From positions 2,908,817-2,947,475 of the forward strand of contig LS998015.1 of the NCBI GenBank assembly GCA_900498245.1: a stretch of 38,659 nucleotides of DNA, given 5' to 3'. Below, piece after piece: positions 2,121-36,817 of the stretch; positions within the stretch are counted from its first letter, which is position 1; each line of letters opens with the position of its first letter. The stretch is from Candidatus Zixiibacteriota bacterium (GTDB lineage Bacteria > Zixibacteria > MSB-5A5 > GN15 > PGXB01). The notes under the pieces were generated by a model that saw only the letters and a list, made by a program, of their open reading frames with translations, searched no databases and was not told the origin of the DNA. The position numbers and the translations under genes are program-made.

Positions 2121-4529
2121 TTACATCGCATTTGAATCAGGAATCGAAATAACGTCAAAGAAGTGAGGATCCAGAGCCGCTTCTTTTTCCGATGGTCCGG
2201 CATGCTCCGCGAAGGACTTTTCCAGAAATTCGCGAGCCCTAATTCTATCATCCATTAAGGCATACGCTCGCGCCATGTTATATAGAATTGATCCATCAAT
2301 TGACGGATTGACATCCAATTTTGATATTGTTGCTTGTGAAAGTGACCATTCTCCCGCACCGGCATATGCCATGGCAAGATAGGATACGAAATTTGCATTA
2401 TCTTTATCCTGATCCGACAATTCAACTATTTCCTCAATCGCCAAATTGAAATGGTTGACTGCCTGTGTCTTTTTATCCTGCAGTTTATCAATCAAACCAA
2501 GGAAGTAATTGGCCACAAAAGAGAAACATCCTGCTTTGATGGCATTATTGAATTGCCTCCGGGCATTATCAAAATCTCTCATTAAAAGGTGAACATATCC
2601 GGCATCAATTTGGGCGCTGGGGTCGCCCTTATATTTGACAGCCAGAAGCAAATTGGCCAGGGCCGGCTCCAGAACTCCCAGTTTGAGATAAACCAGTCCC
2701 AAATTATAGTAAGCCCTGCCATAATCGGGCGCCAGTTCCAAAGCCCGATTAAGAGTGGCCATGGCCGGTGTATACTTCTTTAAATCCATATTAATGAGAC
2801 TCAGAAGAAGCAGAGTCTCCAAATCATTGGGGGCATATTTCAGGGAAAAGTTCGCCCAATATAGGGACCGATCATGATCTCCCACCAGTTCCTTAAGCCA
2901 GGCCAGCGTCCTGTATCCGATTGCATATTTGGGGTTAATGTCAATGGCCTTAAGTAGGGACTTTTCTGCCTTCTCATATTCACCCACAAACATGTAGAAT
3001 CTTCCGAGGGATCGATGGGCGTCGGCCAAATCAGGGGCGATCTCGATGGCCTTAAACGCTTCCTCTCTGGCCTGACTGATTTTGAGGGAACTCCGGTCAT
3101 AATAGGCCATATATTGGAAAGCATATAAATCTGAGAGACCGGCATGTGCATAGGCCAAATTTTCATCTACTTCCAGGGCCCTTTTAAACATCTTTTCAGC
3201 CAATTCCAGGTCATCGGGTTTGTTAGTCTGATAGTAGCTGCGGCCCTTCAGGTAAAAATCATAGGCGGCAATATCTGTTTGAAAATAATCGGTCACCTCG
3301 GGTGAACTCGACCCAGTACTTTCAGCAAATTTCAGCGCAATTTCACCGGCAATATTTGATAGTACTGCAAAAACCTCATTCATAGATGAAATGTATTCCT
3401 TGGAGAACACAATTTTATTCCCCCGATCGCCGTGGATCTTTATATAGAATTTCAATTTGCCTTCCCATTGAAGCAATGTCCCGGAAACCACAAAATCGGA
3501 ACGGCATTTTTCGAAAAGTTCCCTGATGTTTCTCGTGTAGATAGTGGATGGCTCGGCGGAAATTATCAAATCGGTGCGGCGGGAAATTTCATTGATTAAT
3601 TCTTCTGTGAATCCCTCGCAAAGGTTATCCCAATTGACGTCGCCCGAGAGATTTTTCAGATCTATTACAGTGACGGTTTGAGGGGGTAGTTTCTTTATGG
3701 TGTCCAGGCATGTCACGTCGCCGCGGATACATTTATTAAGAGCAGTGATGAATTCCTCAATGCGCTGAAACCGTTCAGATGGTTGTTTGCAGAGAAGACC
3801 GACCACCAAACCATCAAACCATTTAGGGAGATCTCGATTGAATTCAGACAGCAGGGCCGGGTTCTCATGAAGTATGGAGTAAAGAATGGCGGCCGGATAA
3901 TCGCCGTCAAAAGGGCGTCGGCCGCTCAGGATTTCATAAATTATGGTACCAAAACTAAAGAGATCCGAAGCATACGAAATCGTTCCGCCCGTCAGTTGCT
4001 CGGGGGCGAGATAATACAGGGTTCCTTCGACATTGCCATATTTATCGACACTATCGGCATTCACTTCCTTAGCCAGACCGAAATCAAGGATTTTGACCGT
4101 TCCTTCCGGGGTGACTTTTATATTCTGAGGTTTGAGATCCCGATGCAGTAATCCCGCCATGTGCGCCGCCTTTAGCCCATCGGCAATCTGGGAGATCAGA
4201 TTGACTTTCGCCGGGAAATCGCAATGGAGGGCAAAATCGGCGAGCGTCACACCATCCACAAATTCCAGGGCGATATAGGAGGTCTCATCGAAATTATTAT
4301 ATTCCAGAACGCGGACTACATGAGGAGATTCGATTCGGGAAGCCTTTCTGGCTTCGGCCTTAAGTTTGTCTTGATATTCGGGGGATCGGGCATACTGCGG
4401 TTTCAAAATCTTAAGAGCCACCTCCGAGTTCCGGTCGATATCTCTGGCCCTATAGACTATCCCCTTTGCTCCTTCCCCGATGATATCCAGGATGTCATAA
4501 TGCCCAAAATGAGAACCTTGAATTAGCAT
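2121..4529 (-). CDS. Hanks-type Ser/Thr protein kinase with TolB/FlgO-like domain and TPR repeats (soluble)
   Basis: The N-terminal kinase domain (about residues 10-270) has a glycine loop (GEGAKGIVY), the ATP-binding Lys40 (VALKIL), the catalytic loop HRDLKPQN (Asp131), DFG (Asp149), an APE-type motif (LAPEQL) and the DLFSFG segment, so it should be active. Residues about 285-400 resemble the FlgO/TolB-N-like module that often follows such kinases (TVIDLKNLSGDVNW, then FTEELINEIS). About 420-780 is a run of TPR units, for example YAHAGLSDLYAFQYMAYYDR. No transmembrane segment separates kinase and TPRs, unlike the paralogue at 22026-24581, so it is probably cytoplasmic. The ATG at 4529 has no clear Shine-Dalgarno site. 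It is divergent from a GAF-PP2C phosphatase, suggesting opposed kinase/phosphatase roles; substrates are unknown. Confidence 0.93.
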   Translation of the reverse strand: MLIQGSHFGHYDILDIIGEGAKGIVYRARDIDRNSEVALKILKPQYARSPEYQDKLKAEARKASRIESPHVVRVLEYNNFDETSYIALEFVDGVTLADFALHCDFPAKVNLISQIADGLKAAHMAGLLHRDLKPQNIKVTPEGTVKILDFGLAKEVNADSVDKYGNVEGTLYYLAPEQLTGGTISYASDLFSFGTIIYEILSGRRPFDGDYPAAILYSILHENPALLSEFNRDLPKWFDGLVVGLLCKQPSERFQRIEEFITALNKCIRGDVTCLDTIKKLPPQTVTVIDLKNLSGDVNWDNLCEGFTEELINEISRRTDLIISAEPSTIYTRNIRELFEKCRSDFVVSGTLLQWEGKLKFYIKIHGDRGNKIVFSKEYISSMNEVFAVLSNIAGEIALKFAESTGSSSPEVTDYFQTDIAAYDFYLKGRSYYQTNKPDDLELAEKMFKRALEVDENLAYAHAGLSDLYAFQYMAYYDRSSLKISQAREEAFKAIEIAPDLADAHRSLGRFYMFVGEYEKAEKSLLKAIDINPKYAIGYRTLAWLKELVGDHDRSLYWANFSLKYAPNDLETLLLLSLINMDLKKYTPAMATLNRALELAPDYGRAYYNLGLVYLKLGVLEPALANLLLAVKYKGDPSAQIDAGYVHLLMRDFDNARRQFNNAIKAGCFSFVANYFLGLIDKLQDKKTQAVNHFNLAIEEIVELSDQDKDNANFVSYLAMAYAGAGEWSLSQATISKLDVNPSIDGSILYNMARAYALMDDRIRAREFLEKSFAEHAGPSEKEAALDPHFFDVISIPDSNAM

Positions 4530-6279: not shown

Positions 6280-8385
6280 ATGCGTTTAATGCTCATTCCT
6301 ATTTTGATCGGCACGCTTCTATTTCCGGCGATTTCCACCGGTGAAAATGCCAATCAGCCAAAGACTATTTCCGAAAGTGATAATGCCGCAACCACAACAA
6401 TGGTCGGCCGCGCCCCCTATGTCTGCGGCGATGCCAACAACAGCGGCAGCGTCCAACTTGCGGATATATCTTATTTATACAACTTTATATTGGGCTCAGG
6501 CGCTTCACCAGTCGATTATCTGGCGGGCAATGCCGATGGAGTGGCCGGCCCCGACACGATCGTCAATATCGCCGACTGCTCGTATCTTATTAATTACATT
6601 TATTATATGGGTCCGGCCCCATTCGGTTGCAGCAATACTGGCGAAAATTGGCAAACCGTTGCGGGTAATAAAATCCGGGTCGGAGCACAGCCCTATACGG
6701 CCTATCCCGGAAATGATTCGGTGGCCATCCCGGTCTACATAACGAATTCCTCTTCTTTAACCGGCTTGACCGCGGGATTTCATTATACCACAACGGAAGA
6801 GTATAAAATTACATCTGTCGATTGGACCGGATCGGTCTTTTCGCCGGATTTCAACCGCAGTGCCAAGTTCGATACCATTGGCGCTACCGTCCTTTTCGGT
6901 GGACTGTACATGATGTCAAGTCTATCGGCGCAAAACGATGCCCTTTTGGTCAAGTTAAACGCCCGATCGATAGGAAACGGCGGAACCGGCAAGATCTCGC
7001 TGGAAAAAGCGTTCGTCCGGCCGGCCGGGGAATTCATATTTGTAAGCGGCGGATCCATTATCGTTCCTGATGTCGACTATTCCGTCGATTCTTTCAAGGT
7101 TATCAATCTTGATGACGACGGTCCGGGATCGCTTCGATTTGCAATTACCAATGCCAATGCCTCCATGGGACTTGATACAATTGACTTTTCCGTTTCAGGA
7201 ATGATTTCGCTGGCCACGTCTCTTCCGGCTTTTATCGATGACAGCACAGTGATTCTGGGTTCGACGGCGCCGAGCGGCGATTACTCTGTAATTGTCGACG
7301 GTTCCGGTCTATCCGGGGGCAATTGCATGGTTCTGCAAAGCCGTAATTGCAGGATTGAGGGATTGACATTCCGGAACTTCCCGGCCAATGCCATATCTAT
7401 AACCGGACCTCTGACCGCATATAATACTATAACCAATAATCTGTTTTATGATAATACCGATCTTGGCATCGACCTCAACAATGACGGGGTTACCATAAAT
7501 GATCCCGGCGACGCTGACTCTGGCCCCAACGACCTTCTGAACTATCCCGAGGTCGATTCGGTTTATATAAACCCCGACAGTTCTTTTATTATTTATGGCC
7601 GTTCGGCTGGCAAATCCCGGATCGAGTTCTTTGTGGCTCACCCGGCCGGAGATCCGATAAAACCGGCCGATCCGTCAGGACATGGGGAGGCCTATTCATA
7701 TATAGGATTTACAGCCGCCGATCCCACAGGGGCTTTCACCAACACCATTCCCAATTCAGTCAAACAGTTTTCAATAATCAGCACCACGGCCACCGATACG
7801 CTGGGCAACACGTCCGAATTCAGTGATAATTTCACTCTGACCCCAGGGCCGCTAATCGTGGTCGCTTATTCTCCGGTTAATCTGAAGGTCACCGATCCGG
7901 ATGGCTACTATATTGGCAAGGATGCCGATGGAAATCTCACCCAAACGCTAATTCCGGCAACGTACGTTGAGATTGTTAATGATTCGATCAATATTCCTCA
8001 TCCCATCTGGGGGCGCTATACGATTGAGATAATTGCTGAAACCGCGGCCCCTCCTAATTCCTATTATGGTGCAGGCATAAGGATTGACGGCTCCAACGAA
8101 TGCATGGTCAAATGGAACGAGCCGGTTCCCGATCCCGGACAGACCGATACCGTGACATATAATGTCGAGGAAGGCTATCATTATCTCAATGCCGATGCTA
8201 ACGACAATGGAACGTTAAACATTCTGGATGTTTCCTTTTTAATAAATTATCTCTATCGGCACGGTCCGGAACCGTATCCGCTGGAGGCCGGTGACGCCAA
8301 CTGTAACGGAAAAATAAACATTCTGGATGTTTCCTTCCTGATCAGTTACCTTTACAAACATGGCCCGGAGCCATGCAGACAATAA
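6280..8385 (+). CDS. Secreted protein with dockerin-like domains at both ends, cohesin-like and beta-helix-like regions
   Basis: The ATG at 6280 follows a perfect TAAGGAGG (6268-6275). The N-terminus is a typical signal peptide (MRLMLIPILIGTLLFPAIS). Residues about 47-117 form a dockerin-like domain (CGDANNSGSVQLADISYLYN, NADGVAGPDTIVNIADCSYL). About 128-268 is a cohesin-like sandwich. About 271-430 begins with the CSLREA-like pattern VINLDDDGPGSLRFAI and continues with short repeats typical of a right-handed beta-helix. The C-terminus (about 634-698) is a second dockerin-like pair (NADANDNGTLNILDVSFLIN, GDANCNGKINILDVSFLISY). It is extracellular or surface-exposed, and a role in assembling or binding surface proteins is inferred. 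There is no C-terminal sorting domain, unlike the protein at 1-1614. No catalytic motif was recognised. Confidence 0.85.
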   Translation: MRLMLIPILIGTLLFPAISTGENANQPKTISESDNAATTTMVGRAPYVCGDANNSGSVQLADISYLYNFILGSGASPVDYLAGNADGVAGPDTIVNIADCSYLINYIYYMGPAPFGCSNTGENWQTVAGNKIRVGAQPYTAYPGNDSVAIPVYITNSSSLTGLTAGFHYTTTEEYKITSVDWTGSVFSPDFNRSAKFDTIGATVLFGGLYMMSSLSAQNDALLVKLNARSIGNGGTGKISLEKAFVRPAGEFIFVSGGSIIVPDVDYSVDSFKVINLDDDGPGSLRFAITNANASMGLDTIDFSVSGMISLATSLPAFIDDSTVILGSTAPSGDYSVIVDGSGLSGGNCMVLQSRNCRIEGLTFRNFPANAISITGPLTAYNTITNNLFYDNTDLGIDLNNDGVTINDPGDADSGPNDLLNYPEVDSVYINPDSSFIIYGRSAGKSRIEFFVAHPAGDPIKPADPSGHGEAYSYIGFTAADPTGAFTNTIPNSVKQFSIISTTATDTLGNTSEFSDNFTLTPGPLIVVAYSPVNLKVTDPDGYYIGKDADGNLTQTLIPATYVEIVNDSINIPHPIWGRYTIEIIAETAAPPNSYYGAGIRIDGSNECMVKWNEPVPDPGQTDTVTYNVEEGYHYLNADANDNGTLNILDVSFLINYLYRHGPEPYPLEAGDANCNGKINILDVSFLISYLYKHGPEPCRQ
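8216..8336 (+). repeat. 22-bp exact direct repeat within the C-terminal dockerin
   Basis: The 22-bp words at 8216-8237 and 8315-8336 are identical and 99 bp (33 codons) apart. Both encode the NILDVSF part of the two calcium-binding segments. Synonymous sites are identical as well, so the two dockerin halves look recently duplicated or gene-converted. Confidence 0.85.
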
Positions 8386-22025: not shown

Positions 22026-24581
22026 CTATTGAGGATTGAGTAGCTTTTGGAACTCAATATTATTTTTCAGACCTTTCCATACGGGATCGATTTTTAAATA
22101 GGCCGGCGAAACAAAGCCCGGGATCGAAATCAGAAATCTCAGCTGCTCCACGGCCGCGTCATCCTCACCGAATATGGTCATTATCTCCGCCAGATTTACC
22201 ACCCAGAATGGGGCATCGAATGCCTCCTGCGAGGATGGCAGCAACTTTACAGCCGCTTCCCCATGTAGCAGGGCGCTATCTTTGAACCGCAGTCCCGCAT
22301 AAGCAAGACCCAAATAACTTTCAATTCGAGCATTACCGTTTCGCCCCGGCAGCTGCCGTTGGAGAATCTTCAAAGCCGAATCGGAATATGATCTCTCAAT
22401 TTCCTTCTTTCCGAGAAAACGATTGAATTGCGCAACCTGCAAATAATAGGCAGCGGTATCCGAACCGGGCGAAATCATTTTTTCAGCCTTTCGAAAATCG
22501 GGCTCAATTATCCGCAACAGCCACCAGTAATATTTATTGCCGGAGAGATTGACCCGCCCCGAAGCCTCCCGCAAAATATTTTTCGCCTCGGGAACATCGC
22601 CTTTGTCAATAACTTTCAGCCATGCTTTATATATATATGCCAGGGGCCAGTCAGGAGCCAGCATGACGGCCCGGTCGAGATAATCGGCCGCTTTTTGATA
22701 TTGCCGCATCATTCCATAGCACAATCCGACATCGAAGGCCTTCTGATGCGAACGGGGATCAAGTTCCAATGCTTTCGTGAAATTCTGGACGGACTGTTGC
22801 AGGTTTCCTTCTCGTCTCTGAACCGCACCTATGGCATTATAAAGATCACTACTATTGGGCTGATTTTTTAGAGCTAATTCGAATTCTTCAAGTGCCAGTT
22901 TATAATCCAGATGGCAGTGATAATAATAATACCCCTTCGCCAGGTGCCCTTCCACGAGATCGGGGGCAAGCGTTAATGCTCTGTCCGCAGCAAGTTGCGC
23001 CAGATTCCTTCTATTGTCACTCCGGTCAAAATATTCCCAATACATGCTGGCATGTCCCCGGGCCAACATGGCATAGGCCAGTGCAAAATTTGTGTCCTGA
23101 TGAATCGCCTCCTGATAGAGACGAATCGCGTTTTCGATATCATTCCTATCCCAGGTTTTATTGAAATATTCATTGCCCCTGAGATATAAATCGTAAGCCT
23201 CAAGATTCTTTGTCGGCTCCGGCATCTCTCCGGCCAAATGGGACCAACTGCTTGTCGGTGCCAGGATTTGCAGGATATCGTCCGATATCTTCGTCTGAAG
23301 AGTAAATATCTCATTTATCGGCGGTTCATAAATCTGGGCCCATAGGTATTGGTCTTTGTCGGCTTTAATTAGACTGGCATTAATACGAATCCGATCCGCT
23401 CCGCCGGATTTGTCCCAGAAAATCGTCCCCGTTAATAAATAATCAACGCCCAGTTCTACGCCAATTTCCCGCGTTTTTTTATGACTGTCACGATAGAGCG
23501 CGGCGCTGGCTCGAGATATCACTCCCAATTCCTGATGCCGGGCCAAATTGGTGGTAATGGCGTCGGTCATCCCCTCGGCAAAATATCCCTCTTCCGGAGG
23601 CCCCAGATTCTCAAAGGGAAGTATGGCCACCATTTTTCGCGGCACAGCCGGGGCTCCCGACCTATAGGTAATATTTCTTAATAACAGCGCCGCCAGGATT
23701 GAAATGAGTATCAGTGAGATCCAATAAACGGCTCGCTTCGGCAACGACGGCCTTTTGCTTTCTAGGCCGGTTTTGGCATGAAGACATTTCTCCAAATCGG
23801 TGCCCACCTCGCCGGCGCTCTGATATCTTTCATTCACATTCTTCTTTAGCAGCTTTTCCACGATGAAAATCAAATCTGACGGAGCATCCGGGCAGAGTTC
23901 TTTCAACGGCCGCGGGACTTCATTCACAATGGCAAAAACAATCGCCGCTTCATATTCCCCGCAAAATGGAAGTTCCCCGGACAGCATCTGATATAGGACC
24001 GTCCCGAAAGAAAATAGATCCGATGCCGGCTTAAGCGGCTCGCCTCGTATTTGCTCCGGGGACATGTAACTGATCGTGCCTGTTGTCACACTCGTTTCAT
24101 CCGTCTTCTTTTCATCGTCTGCCCGGGCCAGTCCAAAATCAAGAATCTTGACCCGCCCCTTTTCGTCCAACTGAATATTTGATGGCTTGATATCCCGATG
24201 AATCAATCCGGACGAATGCGCCTCCTCTAACCCGCGGCAGATTTGAACGGCAATTTCAATCGTCCTTTCATAAGGCAATCTGTCCTTAATAATCATATCT
24301 CTTAACGAAGGACCATCGATATATTCCATTGCGATAAAAGGAAGATCCTTATATTCTCCAACTTCATAAATAGTGACGATATTGGGATGATTGAGCGCCG
24401 CCGCCTTTCTGGCCTCATCGGCAAATTGCTTGCGCACTATAGCGTCACGGCTAAATCGCTCTGACATGAATTTGAGGACTACCTGGCGGTGCAGTTTAGT
24501 ATCCTGGGCCAGATAGACTTCACCCATACCACCGGCGCCAAGACGCCTGATTATTTTGAAATGTCCTATTTCAGTATCCAT
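22026..24581 (-). CDS. Membrane-anchored Hanks-type Ser/Thr kinase with TolB/FlgO-like domain and TPR repeats
   Basis: The kinase domain (about 8-270) shows GAGGMGEVY, Lys37 (VVLKFM), HRDIKPSN (Asp130), DFG (Asp148) and MSPEQ, so it should be active. A single transmembrane helix (about 285-302, WISLILISILAALLL) separates it from a TolB/FlgO-like module (about 315-440: MVAILPFENLGPPEEGYFAEGMTD, residues 317-340) and a long TPR array (about 465-800). With the kinase inside, the sensor and TPR parts face the periplasm. Kinase, TolB-like and TPR order is the same as in 2121-4529, but that protein lacks the membrane helix. The gene is convergent with the GAF-sigma54 activator, a plausible partner. 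No clear Shine-Dalgarno site precedes the ATG. Confidence 0.94.
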   Translation of the reverse strand: MDTEIGHFKIIRRLGAGGMGEVYLAQDTKLHRQVVLKFMSERFSRDAIVRKQFADEARKAAALNHPNIVTIYEVGEYKDLPFIAMEYIDGPSLRDMIIKDRLPYERTIEIAVQICRGLEEAHSSGLIHRDIKPSNIQLDEKGRVKILDFGLARADDEKKTDETSVTTGTISYMSPEQIRGEPLKPASDLFSFGTVLYQMLSGELPFCGEYEAAIVFAIVNEVPRPLKELCPDAPSDLIFIVEKLLKKNVNERYQSAGEVGTDLEKCLHAKTGLESKRPSLPKRAVYWISLILISILAALLLRNITYRSGAPAVPRKMVAILPFENLGPPEEGYFAEGMTDAITTNLARHQELGVISRASAALYRDSHKKTREIGVELGVDYLLTGTIFWDKSGGADRIRINASLIKADKDQYLWAQIYEPPINEIFTLQTKISDDILQILAPTSSWSHLAGEMPEPTKNLEAYDLYLRGNEYFNKTWDRNDIENAIRLYQEAIHQDTNFALAYAMLARGHASMYWEYFDRSDNRRNLAQLAADRALTLAPDLVEGHLAKGYYYYHCHLDYKLALEEFELALKNQPNSSDLYNAIGAVQRREGNLQQSVQNFTKALELDPRSHQKAFDVGLCYGMMRQYQKAADYLDRAVMLAPDWPLAYIYKAWLKVIDKGDVPEAKNILREASGRVNLSGNKYYWWLLRIIEPDFRKAEKMISPGSDTAAYYLQVAQFNRFLGKKEIERSYSDSALKILQRQLPGRNGNARIESYLGLAYAGLRFKDSALLHGEAAVKLLPSSQEAFDAPFWVVNLAEIMTIFGEDDAAVEQLRFLISIPGFVSPAYLKIDPVWKGLKNNIEFQKLLNPQ

Positions 24582-30171: not shown

Positions 30172-30735
30172 ATGCAGGTAGATTGCGATAAGTTCTGGAA
30201 GCTTCTGGAACCGGTCCACAGCAAAGCCGAAAATTTCTGTCGGCGGCTGGCCGGTAACCGTGATGACGGCGACGATCTCTATCTGGAATCTATCATGACG
30301 GCCCTCGCGAAACTTGATACTCTCCGCGAGGACGCCGCCTTCAAACCATGGTTTTACCGGATCGTGGTTAACCGCTATAGAAATTATCGACGGGCCTCCT
30401 GGTGGCGATCCGCCGGGTCGGATATACTTGAAAGGTCCGAACCGCCGGCCCATGATCCGTCGGAGAGATATGCCGCGCGCCGGTATCTGAAAATCGCCCT
30501 GTCTGCATTGAAACATGAAGAGCGCGCCCTGATTGTATTGTATGAGTTGGAAGACTGGTCCATCGGAGAACTGGCAGAACTCTTCGTTGCACCGGAGGGA
30601 ACTATTAAGGCCCGGTTGAGTCGGGCCAGACAGAAGATGCGGAAAGCTCTCATCCCGCTGATTCCGCAAGGTTCAAACGATTTAGCAAGGGAGGATGGAT
30701 ATGAATTGCCGGAAAGCTCGGCGACTGCTGAATGA
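30172..30735 (+). CDS. ECF-type RNA polymerase sigma factor
   Basis: The 187-residue protein has a sigma70 region 2 (about 10-80, with FKPWFYRIVVNRYRNYRR) and a region 4 helix-turn-helix (about 100-160: LKHEERALIVLYELEDWSIG, then FVAPEGTIKARLSRARQKMR). Region 3 is absent, as in ECF factors. A GAGGA site lies 6 bases before the ATG and a perfect TATAAT at 30151-30156 is upstream. Its 3' end overlaps the anti-sigma factor gene by 35 bp, so the two are translated from one mRNA. ECF factors typically control their own operon; the upstream -10 is compatible with that, but the -35 here is weak. Confidence 0.95.
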   Translation: MQVDCDKFWKLLEPVHSKAENFCRRLAGNRDDGDDLYLESIMTALAKLDTLREDAAFKPWFYRIVVNRYRNYRRASWWRSAGSDILERSEPPAHDPSERYAARRYLKIALSALKHEERALIVLYELEDWSIGELAELFVAPEGTIKARLSRARQKMRKALIPLIPQGSNDLAREDGYELPESSATAE

Positions 30736-31816: not shown

Positions 31817-34800
31817 TCAAATGCGATTCAGAACTGCCCGCAAATAGGCCAGGTGCTGCCGTTTCGGAGTCTGTCCCAATTCTATCTTAATTGTGGGATT
31901 CCCTCCAAGCGAGAATTCCATTGGAAACTCCACTGCTCGGCGCCAGCCTTCAATCCCTTTGCGGTCGAATTTTCGCCCGCCCTTAAATTGAAGTTCCACC
32001 CGCCCGCCGCGTAAACGCACTTTTTCTATTTCCTGAGCCCAGGCCGAAATTCTTACCGCCGCGGCTTCAAACAGATTGGCCGTTTCCTCAGGAAGATGTC
32101 CGTAGCGATCCTCGACATCATCGCGGATATTTTCGATTTCCTGCAAGGTCCTGGCCCCGGCGATTTTCTGATAAATCTCAACCTTCTGCTGATTGATATT
32201 GATATAAAAATCGGGGATCGACATATCGATATCGCTTTCCAACCTGGTATCGGGCGCCGAAACCACCGTCTCCCCTTTCAGTTCGGCGACGGCCTGTTCC
32301 AGCAATTTGGTGTACAAATCGAATCCGACTTCTTCGATGAATCCCGATTGTTCCGCCCCCAAAATATTTCCGGCGCCCCGAATCTCCAAATCCTTCATCG
32401 CCAGCGCAAAACCACTGCCCAGATCGGCATGAGCCTCAATGGCCCGCAAACGTTTGCGGGCATCCTCACTCAAGAGCCGATACGGAGGCGTCAAGAGATA
32501 CGCATAGGCACGCACCGAGGAACGTCCCACCCGTCCCCGGAGCTGATACAATTGCGCCAGACCGAAACGATCGGCGCGATTAATGATTATGGTGTTCACC
32601 GAGGGAATATCAAGCCCGGATTCGATAATCGAGGTTGAAAGCAAAACTTGAAATCGACCTGATAAAAAGGCCAGCATGATCCCTTCCAGGGAACGTTCGT
32701 GCATTTGCCCGTGCGCCACCGCTATTTCAACCTGCGGCACAATCTTTTTCAAATAGCGGTACATCGATTCAATGGTCTGAACCCGGTTATGAACAAAAAA
32801 TACTTGCCCGCCGCGATCGATCTCCCTCAAAATCGCTTCGGATATGACCTCTGGTTCAAATTCACTTATTTCCGTAATAATGGGCAGGCGATCCTTGGGT
32901 GACGTATTGATTAGCGACATATCCCTCGCCCCCATTAGGGACATTTGCAGAGTCCTCGGAATCGGCGTGGCCGTCATGGCAATTGTATCGACAGTTGCCC
33001 GCAACTTCCGGAGTGACTCCTTATGCTTCACTCCAAATCGCTGTTCCTCGTCTATGACAAGAAGCCCTAAATCGGCAAATTTGACATCTTTGGAAAGCAG
33101 CCGGTGAGTCCCGATGACAACATCGACTTTCCCCTCGCCTAATTTCCTCACAATTTCCAGCTGTTCCTTGCGGTTCCGAAACCGCGACAGCATCTCTACC
33201 CGAACCGGAAAATCTGCCAGACGCTGAGAAAAAGTATTTAAATGCTGCTGAGCCAGAATTGTCGTTGGAACCAGAACCGCCACCTGTTTTCCCGCCTCTA
33301 CCGCCTTGAAGGCCGCCCGTACCGCCACCTCCGTCTTGCCATAGCCGACGTCACCGCATATCAGCCGATCCATCGGGGTGACTTTCTGCATATCCGTCTT
33401 TATGACTTCAATCGCCTTCAATTGATCCGGCGTTTCATCATAAATGAAAGACGCTTCTAGCTGCTTCATCCAGGTCGTGTCGGGACCGAATCCAAATCCG
33501 GGACGCGTCTTCCTTTCGGCATATATTTTTATCAAATCGGCGGCCATATCGGCAATCGCCTTCTTGGTCCGCGCCTTTATCTTGTCCCAGCCGGTTCCGC
33601 CCAAAACCGATAGTTTCGGCGCCGCATCTTTTCCCGCATATTTGCCCACGCGATTGAATTCCTCAATCGGGACATACAGCTTCCCCCCCTCGGCATAAAT
33701 TAAGTGAAGGCAGTCACGCTCCTTGCCGTCGATCTGAATCGTCTTGAGCCCGGCATAACGGGCAATCCCGAAGTCTTCATGCACCACGAAATCGCCGTTC
33801 ACCAAACTCGTGTAGCTCTGCAGCGCCACGCCCTCCCTGAATTTCTTTCGTCTGGTGCGCCGATAATACTTGCCGAATATTTGATGATCGGTAAGGATCG
33901 CCAGGCGGTTCTCGCGCGACACGAATCCGCCTTTTAAAAGCGCTACTTCGATCGGAATCGGCCCTGCCTGCGGAATTTTTTCCGATAACAATTCGCCCAA
34001 TCGCGACGCCTGCCCGGCATTATCGGTAGCAATGAAAAATTTCACCTGCTCCTTCCGGAAGTTCTCGATGGTATCCGCCAGCAGATCCAACCGGGAGCCG
34101 ATTGCAGGATGCTCCCGGCAGTGAAAATCAATGGCACTATCCCGGTTGCCAAAAGGAAGAATTTTAATTCCGGGGACCTGATCGCGATAGGAGAAAAACC
34201 TTATTGCATTACCATAATAATTTTCAACCGGAGGGGCTCCGTCCAGACGTTCCCGGATCCTCTCCCGGTGACGTTCTCCTGTTTTCTTTATTTCATCGGC
34301 TGTGGCCTCAAGGCTCGCGACATCATTGGCAATAACAATGATCCGATCCTTGTTGAGATAGTCCATAAGCGATCCGTATTCCAGCCCAAAAGGAATCGCC
34401 AGCCATTCCAGCCCGGGAAGTTCCGGATCATTAAGATAACGGGCCCGGATGAAATCACCGTCCTTTTCGTTCAGCCGGCTCAGATATGACTCGAGGGTTT
34501 TGAACGTAATGGGAACTTCGCGTTTTGGCAATAAGGTGACTTCCTCCAATTTTCCGGTCGTCCTCTGGCTCGCGACATCGAATTCACGAATTGTTTCAAT
34601 AATGTCACCGTAAAACTCCAGCCTAATTGGCCCCTCAAAACCGGGCGAAAAAAAGTCAATCAAACCCCCTCGAAGAGCAAAATCACCCACTTCCTCCACC
34701 AGGGGGACCCTCTGAAAACCCATCTCTATCAACTTCTCGGCCAAGCGATCAATTTCCATTTCTTGATCGACCTTCAGCATCAAACTCCCGCGCTCAAAGT

Positions 34801-35236
34801 CCTTCCGAGCCACGGTCGGCTCCATCAGCGCCTCGAGCGAAGCTACCAGGATTTTCGTCTCTCCCTTCACCAAACGGGACAGAGCATATAGCCTTTGCCC
34901 GATAATTTCCGCCGTCGGGGTGCGAAATTCGTATGGGGGGATCATTCGCGGGGGAAAGAGAACCACATCTTTCTCGCCCAGAAGAAAATTCAAATCGTCA
35001 AAAAGATTATTCGCTTCCTCGACTTCGTTGGTGACTGCCAAAATAAGCCGTGAAGTCTCATCTATCAGATTAGCCACCAGAAGTGCCGCCGATGAACCGG
35101 CCAATCCACTGATCGTTATTCGTCCATCATTTTCCTGGCTTAGTCTTTCGACAAGTTTTCGGAAAGACGCTGTCTCGGAAAACCTGCGCTTTATGAGCGC
35201 CTTATAATCGGAATAGGTTTCCTTTTTACTTTCCAT
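31817..35236 (-). CDS. mfd: Transcription-repair coupling factor Mfd
   Basis: Mfd pushes stalled RNA polymerase off DNA and recruits UvrA. The 1139-residue protein shows the N-terminal UvrB-like part, a CarD-like RNA-polymerase interaction domain (about 485-560, VHEDFGIARYAGL and KLYVPIEEFNRVGKY), and a helicase core with Walker A GDVGYGKTEVAVRAA (about 625), the DEEQ box (LLVIDEEQRFGVKHKE, about 730) and TATPIPRTL. Helicase motifs continue with LSTSIIESGLDIPSVNTII and QLYQLRGRVGRS. The C-terminal TRCF domain (about 990-1110) is present with FIEEVGFDLYTKLLEQAV. Length is normal. GGAGG 12 bases before the ATG is a distant ribosome-binding site. It is divergent from gatD. Confidence 0.97.
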   Translation of the reverse strand: MESKKETYSDYKALIKRRFSETASFRKLVERLSQENDGRITISGLAGSSAALLVANLIDETSRLILAVTNEVEEANNLFDDLNFLLGEKDVVLFPPRMIPPYEFRTPTAEIIGQRLYALSRLVKGETKILVASLEALMEPTVARKDFERGSLMLKVDQEMEIDRLAEKLIEMGFQRVPLVEEVGDFALRGGLIDFFSPGFEGPIRLEFYGDIIETIREFDVASQRTTGKLEEVTLLPKREVPITFKTLESYLSRLNEKDGDFIRARYLNDPELPGLEWLAIPFGLEYGSLMDYLNKDRIIVIANDVASLEATADEIKKTGERHRERIRERLDGAPPVENYYGNAIRFFSYRDQVPGIKILPFGNRDSAIDFHCREHPAIGSRLDLLADTIENFRKEQVKFFIATDNAGQASRLGELLSEKIPQAGPIPIEVALLKGGFVSRENRLAILTDHQIFGKYYRRTRRKKFREGVALQSYTSLVNGDFVVHEDFGIARYAGLKTIQIDGKERDCLHLIYAEGGKLYVPIEEFNRVGKYAGKDAAPKLSVLGGTGWDKIKARTKKAIADMAADLIKIYAERKTRPGFGFGPDTTWMKQLEASFIYDETPDQLKAIEVIKTDMQKVTPMDRLICGDVGYGKTEVAVRAAFKAVEAGKQVAVLVPTTILAQQHLNTFSQRLADFPVRVEMLSRFRNRKEQLEIVRKLGEGKVDVVIGTHRLLSKDVKFADLGLLVIDEEQRFGVKHKESLRKLRATVDTIAMTATPIPRTLQMSLMGARDMSLINTSPKDRLPIITEISEFEPEVISEAILREIDRGGQVFFVHNRVQTIESMYRYLKKIVPQVEIAVAHGQMHERSLEGIMLAFLSGRFQVLLSTSIIESGLDIPSVNTIIINRADRFGLAQLYQLRGRVGRSSVRAYAYLLTPPYRLLSEDARKRLRAIEAHADLGSGFALAMKDLEIRGAGNILGAEQSGFIEEVGFDLYTKLLEQAVAELKGETVVSAPDTRLESDIDMSIPDFYININQQKVEIYQKIAGARTLQEIENIRDDVEDRYGHLPEETANLFEAAAVRISAWAQEIEKVRLRGGRVELQFKGGRKFDRKGIEGWRRAVEFPMEFSLGGNPTIKIELGQTPKRQHLAYLRAVLNRI

Positions 35237-35259
35237 TCAGAGTCTATTTCCTCCAAGCA

Positions 35260-35288
35260 CAAAAGCCCCACCCGAATTACGGGAGGGG
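35260..35288 (-). other. Terminator-like hairpin in the mfd leader
   Basis: CCCCACCCG (35266-35274) pairs with CGGGAGGGG (35280-35288) with one mismatch around AATTA. On the minus strand, GGGGC is followed by TTTTG, so it looks like a weak intrinsic terminator only about 30 bp upstream of the mfd start codon. No minus-strand gene lies above it. Confidence 0.4.
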
Positions 35289-35431
35289 TATTTATCTGGC
35301 TAAATTATCGGGTAAGAATCTAATAAATTCACTTCCCAACAGCAAACTATTTATGTCCGGTAATATCTCCTCTTGACATATGGCCGCTTTCCGCTTTCCT
35401 TGACCTGAAACTTGAGAAAGTAGAGAAAGAA

Positions 35432-36817
35432 ATGAATGATACATCGTTGAAAGGTTATAAAGGACGAGCCAAAGAAGTCCTGCAATCGCTGGGGGGGCGG
35501 GTATGGGCCAATGTCGTTCTGCAAACCGATCGGGGTGATTTTGAAGGTGTCATATTGCCCCGTTCCGAGACTGCCGACGGCGATCACATTGTTCTTAAGT
35601 TAAAGTCCGGCTACAATATAGGGATTCGGGCCGATCGCATTCAGAAGATTGTTGAGACCGGTTATAAGGAAGCCATTTACAAGATCCCCGAGAAAGAATT
35701 TCCCCGAAGCCCCGAGAAGCCCAATGTGACCCTCCTCGGGACCGGAGGGACAATTGCCTCGCGGCTTGATTACCGCACCGGGGCCGTTATCCCCGCTTTT
35801 ACCCCGGGCGAACTCTACGGGGCCGTACCGGAATTGGCCGATACCTGCAACCTGGAAACCATAAAATTGTTCGGGGTTTTTTCCGAAAATATGGGTCCGG
35901 CGCAGTGGATCGCCCTTTCCGAAGAAATCGGCCGCCAAATTGAAAAAGGGGCTTCCGGCATCGTTATCGGGCACGGCACCGATACGATGCACCATACTTC
36001 GGCCATTCTTTCCTTCATGGTACAGAACAGCCCCGTCCCTATCGTCATGGTCGGCTCTCAGCGCTCTTCCGACCGTCCGTCGTCCGACGCCGCTTTCAAC
36101 CTTCGCTGCGCCACTTTTACCGCCGGTCATTCCGACATTGCGGAAACGATGGTTTGTATGTTCGGGCCGACTTCCGATGAATATAATCTCTTGCATCGCG
36201 GGACCCGAGTCCGCAAAATGCATTCGTCCTATCGCTCGACCTTTAGAACCATCGGTGATGTCCCCATCGCCATGGTCACACCGGATCATGTTATCCCCAT
36301 AAAAGATGATTATAAACGGCGTCGCAATGACCGGGATGTCACGGTCAAAGCCGTATTCGAGGAAAAGGTGGCCATCGTCTATTACTATCCGAATATGCGT
36401 CCCGATATTATTGAATCACTCATCGATAACGGATATAAAGGCATCGTCATCGCCGGCACCGGTCTCGGCCATGTGAATAAACCGCTCTATCCCGCCCTGA
36501 AGAAGGCCCACGAAAAGGGGATCGCCGTCTATATGACCGTTCAGACCCTCTGGGGATATGTTCAGATGTATGTTTATGATACCGGCCGCGATATGATGGA
36601 ATTGGGAGTTATTCCCGCCGAAAATATGCTCCCCGAGGTGGCCTATGTCAAATTGGGCTGGGTCCTGGCGCAAACTTCCGATCTCGCCCGAGTAAAGGAA
36701 ATGATGCTGGCGCCGATTGCCGGAGAGATTACCGAAAGAGAGCCGTTTGACGGCTATCTTATACTGCAGGGCGGAATACCCGAAGTGGAAAAATTTATAG
36801 GCCAGTATCACCGCTGA
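35432..36817 (+). CDS. gatD: Archaeal-type glutamyl-tRNA(Gln) amidotransferase subunit D (GatD)
   Basis: GatD is the asparaginase-like subunit that releases ammonia from glutamine or asparagine for its partner GatE, which amidates Glu-tRNA(Gln). The 461-residue length, the N-terminal small barrel (about 1-75, WANVVLQTDRGDFEGVILPR, LKLKSGYNIGI) and the catalytic domain all match GatD rather than plain asparaginases of about 330 residues. Catalytic elements are GTGGTIASRLDYRTGAV (Thr107), HGTDTMHHT (Thr183, Asp184) and Lys262 in RGTRVRKMHSSYRSTF. GatDE is regarded as an archaeal enzyme; most bacteria use GatCAB. No gatE is adjacent: the next gene is a convergent histidine kinase. It could also work as a stand-alone asparaginase/glutaminase. 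Confidence 0.88.
   Translation: MNDTSLKGYKGRAKEVLQSLGGRVWANVVLQTDRGDFEGVILPRSETADGDHIVLKLKSGYNIGIRADRIQKIVETGYKEAIYKIPEKEFPRSPEKPNVTLLGTGGTIASRLDYRTGAVIPAFTPGELYGAVPELADTCNLETIKLFGVFSENMGPAQWIALSEEIGRQIEKGASGIVIGHGTDTMHHTSAILSFMVQNSPVPIVMVGSQRSSDRPSSDAAFNLRCATFTAGHSDIAETMVCMFGPTSDEYNLLHRGTRVRKMHSSYRSTFRTIGDVPIAMVTPDHVIPIKDDYKRRRNDRDVTVKAVFEEKVAIVYYYPNMRPDIIESLIDNGYKGIVIAGTGLGHVNKPLYPALKKAHEKGIAVYMTVQTLWGYVQMYVYDTGRDMMELGVIPAENMLPEVAYVKLGWVLAQTSDLARVKEMMLAPIAGEITEREPFDGYLILQGGIPEVEKFIGQYHR

Follow-up and report, generated by a model that had tools for sequence, protein, structure and literature searches.

The window, as we call the whole 38,659-nucleotide stretch of DNA analysed here, comes from a Candidatus Zixiibacteriota bacterium and raises the question of what a GatD subunit does in a bacterial genome. 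Reviews from 2021–2022 consider GatDE exclusive to archaea (PMC8007984, PMC8762117, PMC9499178), and in canonical archaea the enzyme serves hosts that lack GlnRS and recognises the A1-U72 pair of tRNAGln (PMC9499178).

The first-pass annotation described the gene product as a full-length GatD with its N-terminal barrel and its Thr/Thr-Asp/Lys catalytic set, and our analyses bear this out. In profile searches, the product scored 526.7 bits with the GatD equivalog TIGR02153 (cut-off 324) and 521 bits with NF003217 (cut-off 310); PF18195 (GatD_N) matched residues 31–73 with 52.6 bits and was over cut-off, as were both asparaginase domains, PF00710 and PF17763. The top solved structures were the GatDs of P. 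abyssi (1zq1_A, 426 bits) and M. thermautotrophicus (2d6f_A, 419 bits), with asparaginase structures well behind at 140 bits or less. The predicted model, of moderate confidence (mean pLDDT 73.5), also had 2d6f_A and 1zq1_A as best matches, and aligned to GatD chains over ca. 440 columns, barrel included. All four catalytic residues are present, and invariant in an alignment of 63 bacterial-type GatDs. The features of the gene are as follows:

35432..36817 (+): gatD, 461 aa, ATG start; bacterial-type GatD subunit of GatDE, as assigned from profiles, tree and fold
35522..35650 (+): GatD N-terminal barrel, residues 31–73 (PF18195); strands of the model lie between residues 26 and 78
35741..35743 (+): T104, first catalytic Thr, motif TGGTIAS (structure matches, alignment)
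35978..35983 (+): T183-D184, catalytic Thr-Asp, motif GHGTDTMHH (structure matches, alignment)
36215..36217 (+): K262, catalytic Lys, motif VRKMHSS (structure matches, alignment)
36752..36814 (+): C-terminal extension, residues 441–461, QGG.PE..F (alignment of 63 bacterial-type with 25 canonical archaeal GatDs)

The neighbouring genes are bacterial, as had been noted from mfd and an ECF sigma factor gene, both confirmed in the window:

30172-30735 (+): ECF sigma factor gene
31817-35236 (-): mfd
35237..35431 (no strand): divergent intergenic region of 195 bp between mfd (-) and gatD (+), without Rfam element

With mfd divergent at 195 bp and a convergent hybrid histidine kinase gene on its other side, gatD is a single-gene unit. 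An mfd-like gene also adjoins gatD in seven loci of close relatives, and in much of family f1 gatD is apart from gatE and next to mfd. No gatE adjoins gatD in the window, and no Rfam regulatory RNAs were found close to either gene. Also encoded in the window are two fusions of a Ser/Thr protein kinase with TPR repeats (2121-4529 and 22026-24581, both on the - strand), a protein with a dockerin type I domain at its end (6280-8385, +) and one with a Por secretion C-terminal sorting domain in that place (115-1614, +).

The annotation also presented gatD as lacking gatE, which is correct for the neighbourhood but not for the genome. This is a single contig of 3,508,505 bases (98.9% complete, 0.5% contamination), and gatE lies on it ca. 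1.8 Mb from the window:

G000:C1:1120548-1122308 (-): gatE profile match
L043:4435-6348: gatE open reading frame, 637 aa, 405 bits with TIGR00134

The score of this GatE exceeds the TIGR00134 cut-off (320) in a profile search of the contig, and is slightly below that of the stricter NF003107 (454.6 bits, cut-off 456). Its model (pLDDT 87) best matched, among PDB entries, the GatE chains 2d6f_D and 1zq1_C and then GatBs, and its catalytic-domain motifs are invariant across 46 GatEs. PF02637 (GatB_Yqey) was a poor probe for gatE in this genome, matching only GatB and missing GatE because of the divergent tail of the latter, whereas the full GatE model succeeded.

Because an intact gatE exists elsewhere on the same contig, the window gene is, as judged from its sequence, the GatD half of a dispersed GatDE rather than a lone asparaginase. 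The annotation had entertained that GatD alone might serve as an asparaginase, and a cytoplasmic L-asparaginase/glutaminase would fit with GatD being the only protein of the genome to match PF00710, with its intact asparaginase catalytic residues and with the distance between gatD and gatE. We find this quite improbable, since the same genome codes for a GatE above the family cut-off, most relatives have gatE linked to gatD, and both genes are broadly lost or kept as a pair among 132 genomes of the phylum. Moreover, the protein has the barrel that sets GatD apart from type I asparaginases of the AnsA type, and groups apart from them in profiles and tree.

The label "archaeal-type" holds for membership in the GatD family but not for the position of the protein within it. 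In a tree rooted on asparaginases, the window GatD branched separately from the type I enzymes, in a distinct and mainly bacterial clade that comprised all bacterial GatDs plus eight from Thermoplasmatota, with the canonical archaeal GatDs outside. This bacterial-type clade received an SH-aLRT of 100 with 91 rows and bootstrap/SH-aLRT values of 100/100 with 42 rows. Its stem measures 2.2 changes per column, and a constraint uniting all archaeal GatDs was rejected (p-AU 0.0075). It differs from 25 canonical archaeal GatDs at ca. 40 diagnostic positions, and the C-terminal extension occurs in 63/63 of its members and is absent at residue 455 in 25/25 canonical archaeal GatDs. The base of the clade is unsupported, and thus the tree does not tell which way the gene passed between Thermoplasmatota and bacteria. 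Two Thermoplasmatota genomes, G200 and G191, contain two full GatDs each, and one of those in G200 is of the bacterial type.

Since most of the genomes concerned are metagenome-assembled, an assembly artefact or archaeal contamination might be suspected. This is barely conceivable: gatD and gatE share a 3.5-Mb contig of high completeness among bacterial genes, the window GatD is outside the canonical archaeal clade, and there are GatD matches in 85/132 genomes of the phylum. Above cut-off, profile searches retrieved GatD from 78/132 Zixibacteria genomes and GatE from 69/132, and each model exceeded its cut-off in four of 14 control genomes. gatD is a phylum-wide feature and not an oddity of one genome.

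A sequence scan of GTDB species genomes retrieved at least 563 related stretches, of which we kept 80 loci (69–90% identical). By record title they belong to Zixibacteria, Ignavibacteria, Aminicenantes, Calditrichota, WOR-3/Stahlbacteria, KSB1, Neomarinimicrobiota, Cloacimonadota, Eisenbacteria, Latescibacteria, Fermentibacteria, Coatesbacteria, CSSED10-310, Myxococcales and others, with a few Thermoplasmata; GatD relatives thus span ca. 15 bacterial phyla according to titles that, for metagenome-assembled genomes, can be wrong. In 68/80 loci gatE was in the flank of gatD, mostly immediately upstream and overlapping it head to tail. In the genome G129 (L312:3683-13640; G129:C28), gltX, glnS, gatE and gatD are all within 10 kb, with a 20-base overlap of gatE and gatD. 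The 80 neighbourhoods gave no hint of another substrate, with no aminoacyl-tRNA synthetase or glutamine synthetase gene near gatDE at all but four loci: L101 and three from Thermoplasmata have a glutamine synthetase gene there, and one of these three also has an AsnRS-like gene. Among plasmids, the sole GatE-like match across most of the query was from the archaeon Natrinema, and GatD yielded only distant asparaginase-type matches. The gatD matches of two relatives contain one in-frame TGA each (G043:C156:2931-4133, L030; and G081:C15:12106-13308), which may mark a pseudogene or be a sequencing error.

Purifying selection on gatD is strong, with a dN/dS of ca. 0.012 against a same-genus relative at a dS near saturation; in GatE, dN/dS is higher in the tail (0.18) than in the core (0.09). 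The tail of the GatE from this genome is only 11–19% identical to those of other lineages, against 56–69% over the first 250 residues; it is predicted to form helices, and PF02637 did not match it, although it matched 25/46 GatEs. We rejected a tail loss special to this family, because tail divergence is about equal between all lineages compared, this one included. In archaeal GatDE the tail is the domain that faces the tRNA, and its fast evolution could reflect tRNA recognition that has been relaxed or altered. Together with the position of gatD, apart from gatE and beside mfd across much of family f1, the rate of the tail would also suit an inherited GatDE that is now being lost in its own family. 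We deem such a relict very improbable in view of the extremely strong purifying selection on gatD, the many invariant residues in 46 GatEs and the confidently predicted fold of the GatE from this genome.

The contig that carries gatD also codes for a full GlnRS (776 bits in a profile search), one bacterial GluRS, AsnRS, a bacterial AspRS, gatA and gatB. The first-pass suggestion of acquisition by transfer, or of the use of both systems, therefore withstood our searches, as GlnRS, AsnRS, gatA, gatB and GatDE coexist on one contig. One cluster (L179:4421-9465; G000:C1 ca. 2313420-2318464) holds gatA, gatB, glnA (glutamine synthetase) and an alpha/beta-hydrolase-like gene. The genome also encodes a 332-aa AsnRS-like protein (G000:C1:3245156-3246124, -; L007) in which the N-terminal part of AsnRS is missing and which is below all NCBIfam cut-offs; it resembles the archaeal AsnRS-derived asparagine synthetase.

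Among Zixibacteria genomes at least 90% complete, hand-counted from profile searches, 56 had GlnRS and GatD, 11 only GlnRS, three only GatD and 13 neither (Fisher p 1.6e-6, a value that overstates independence because genomes share ancestry, on counts in which genes missing from metagenome-assembled genomes are noise). GatD is thus found in 56/67 near-complete genomes with GlnRS and in 3/16 without it, the reverse of the archaeal pattern, and counting by genus gave 42/9/2/7 (p 8e-4). GlnRS was above cut-off in 27/41 GatD-bearing genomes reached via named loci. In several near-complete GatDE genomes (e.g. G116, G039), the GatE-profile search found no second, GatB-like match, which suggests that GatDE may be the only amidotransferase in some genomes. 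GlnRS has been reported missing from all archaea (PMC9499178). Three Thermoplasmata-labelled genomes with bacterial-type GatD encode GlnRS above cut-off plus an archaeal GluRS, and have a glutamine synthetase gene near gatDE (L112/L317/L314 in G132, CP070751.1; L122/L318/L315 in G134; L119/L316 in G133).

The tRNAs of the host differ from those read by the archaeal enzyme. Its two tRNAGln genes (one TTG, one CTG) both have U1-A72 with G73, U1-A72 was also found in the 15 Zixibacteria relatives examined rather than the archaeal A1-U72, and none of the 44 tRNA matches in the genome was an A1-U72 tRNAGln dedicated to GatDE. The single tRNAAsn is also U1-A72, from its sequence. The archaeal substrate is thus not simply transferable to bacterial GatDE, and with the fast GatE tail this means that recognition must differ in detail from the archaeal form.

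These differences lend some credit to the idea that bacterial-type GatDE kept its catalysis, lost the archaeal tRNAGln specificity and now acts on Asp-tRNAAsn, on another mischarged tRNA or on a tRNA-bound precursor outside translation. The fast-evolving tail, the long stem of the clade with its diagnostic positions and the U1-A72 of bacterial tRNAGln would all agree with a changed substrate, and a GlnRS alongside makes a role in Gln-tRNA formation appear redundant. We consider this rather unlikely, however, because the gltX-glnS-gatE-gatD cluster of G129 indicates Glu/Gln-tRNA metabolism, this GatD clade extends to Thermoplasmatota with an A1-U72 tRNAGln, and the genome has just its one TTG and one CTG tRNAGln, with no extra dedicated one.

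The simplest reading, by analogy with the archaeal enzyme, would be amidation of Glu-tRNAGln beside GlnRS, and we think it probable that the genome encodes a complete GatDE with this activity. Sequence, fold or phylogeny show the identity of both subunits, their intact catalytic residues, the single bacterial-type GatD clade, gatE-gatD linkage in relatives, strong purifying selection and co-occurrence with GlnRS, whereas we infer the complex in this species, its tRNA substrate, its amide donor and the reason for which it is kept beside GlnRS. A chemistry like that of archaeal GatDE would follow from the conserved residues and the modelled folds: the Thr/Thr-Asp/Lys site of GatD would carry out the hydrolysis of glutamine (or asparagine), ammonia would pass to GatE, and GatE would phosphorylate and then amidate the glutamate borne on tRNAGln. 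As the host has GlnRS, AsnRS, one GluRS, gatA and gatB, GlnRS would supply the direct route to Gln-tRNAGln and GatDE a second, indirect one or, alternatively, GatDE would clean up the Glu-tRNAGln that arises if GluRS still mischarges tRNAGln. Arg358 of GluRS, tried as a marker of tRNAGln discrimination, was invariant in 50/50 Zixibacteria GluRSs with or without GlnRS; it is thus uninformative and gives no support to mischarging, and in H. pylori, too, it is reported not to have the expected effect (PMC3927822).

Compared with archaeal GatDE (TIGR02153/TIGR00134; 1zq1, 2d6f), the bacterial type has the same two subunits, GatD catalytic residues, GatE catalytic domain and folds. It differs in its mainly bacterial hosts, with GlnRS and U1-A72 tRNAGln, in its distinct GatD clade with diagnostic positions and a C-terminal extension of its own, and in its gene order, usually an overlapping gatE-gatD that is dispersed in this genome. 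With bacterial GatCAB it has in common the catalytic fold of GatB and GatE, and the same chemistry would be expected; however, GatD, a glutaminase of the asparaginase type, is not related to the amidase GatA, GatE exceeds GatB in length and has an inserted region, and gatA and gatB exist separately in this genome. The window GatD shares superfamily and catalytic set with type I L-asparaginase (AnsA; TIGR00519, 383.6 bits), but has the GatD_N barrel, nearly 100 extra N-terminal residues, its higher GatD score and a separate branch. Dual direct and indirect routes are known from Bdellovibrio, Thermus and Deinococcus, which have GlnRS, AsnRS and GatCAB (PMC4206432); they likewise combine direct synthetases with an amidotransferase, theirs being GatCAB on Asp-tRNAAsn and the one here GatDE.

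We found no published report of bacterial GatDE among open-licence papers. The GatD sequences are not unannotated, since existing NCBI profiles would assign the name GatD to them; the novelty lies in the pattern. A survey of bacterial Gln-tRNA routes sorted genomes by GluRS, GlnRS and GatCAB only (PMC3927822), a classification that would miss bacterial GatDE. It is plausible, if short of probable, that in many bacterial phyla and some Thermoplasmatota bacterial-type GatDE is a companion of GlnRS, a parallel or quality-control amidotransferase for the repair of Glu-tRNAGln from a GluRS which has never gained discrimination. This would explain how GlnRS could enter bacteria before any change in their GluRS, and GatDE would no longer be an archaeal signature.
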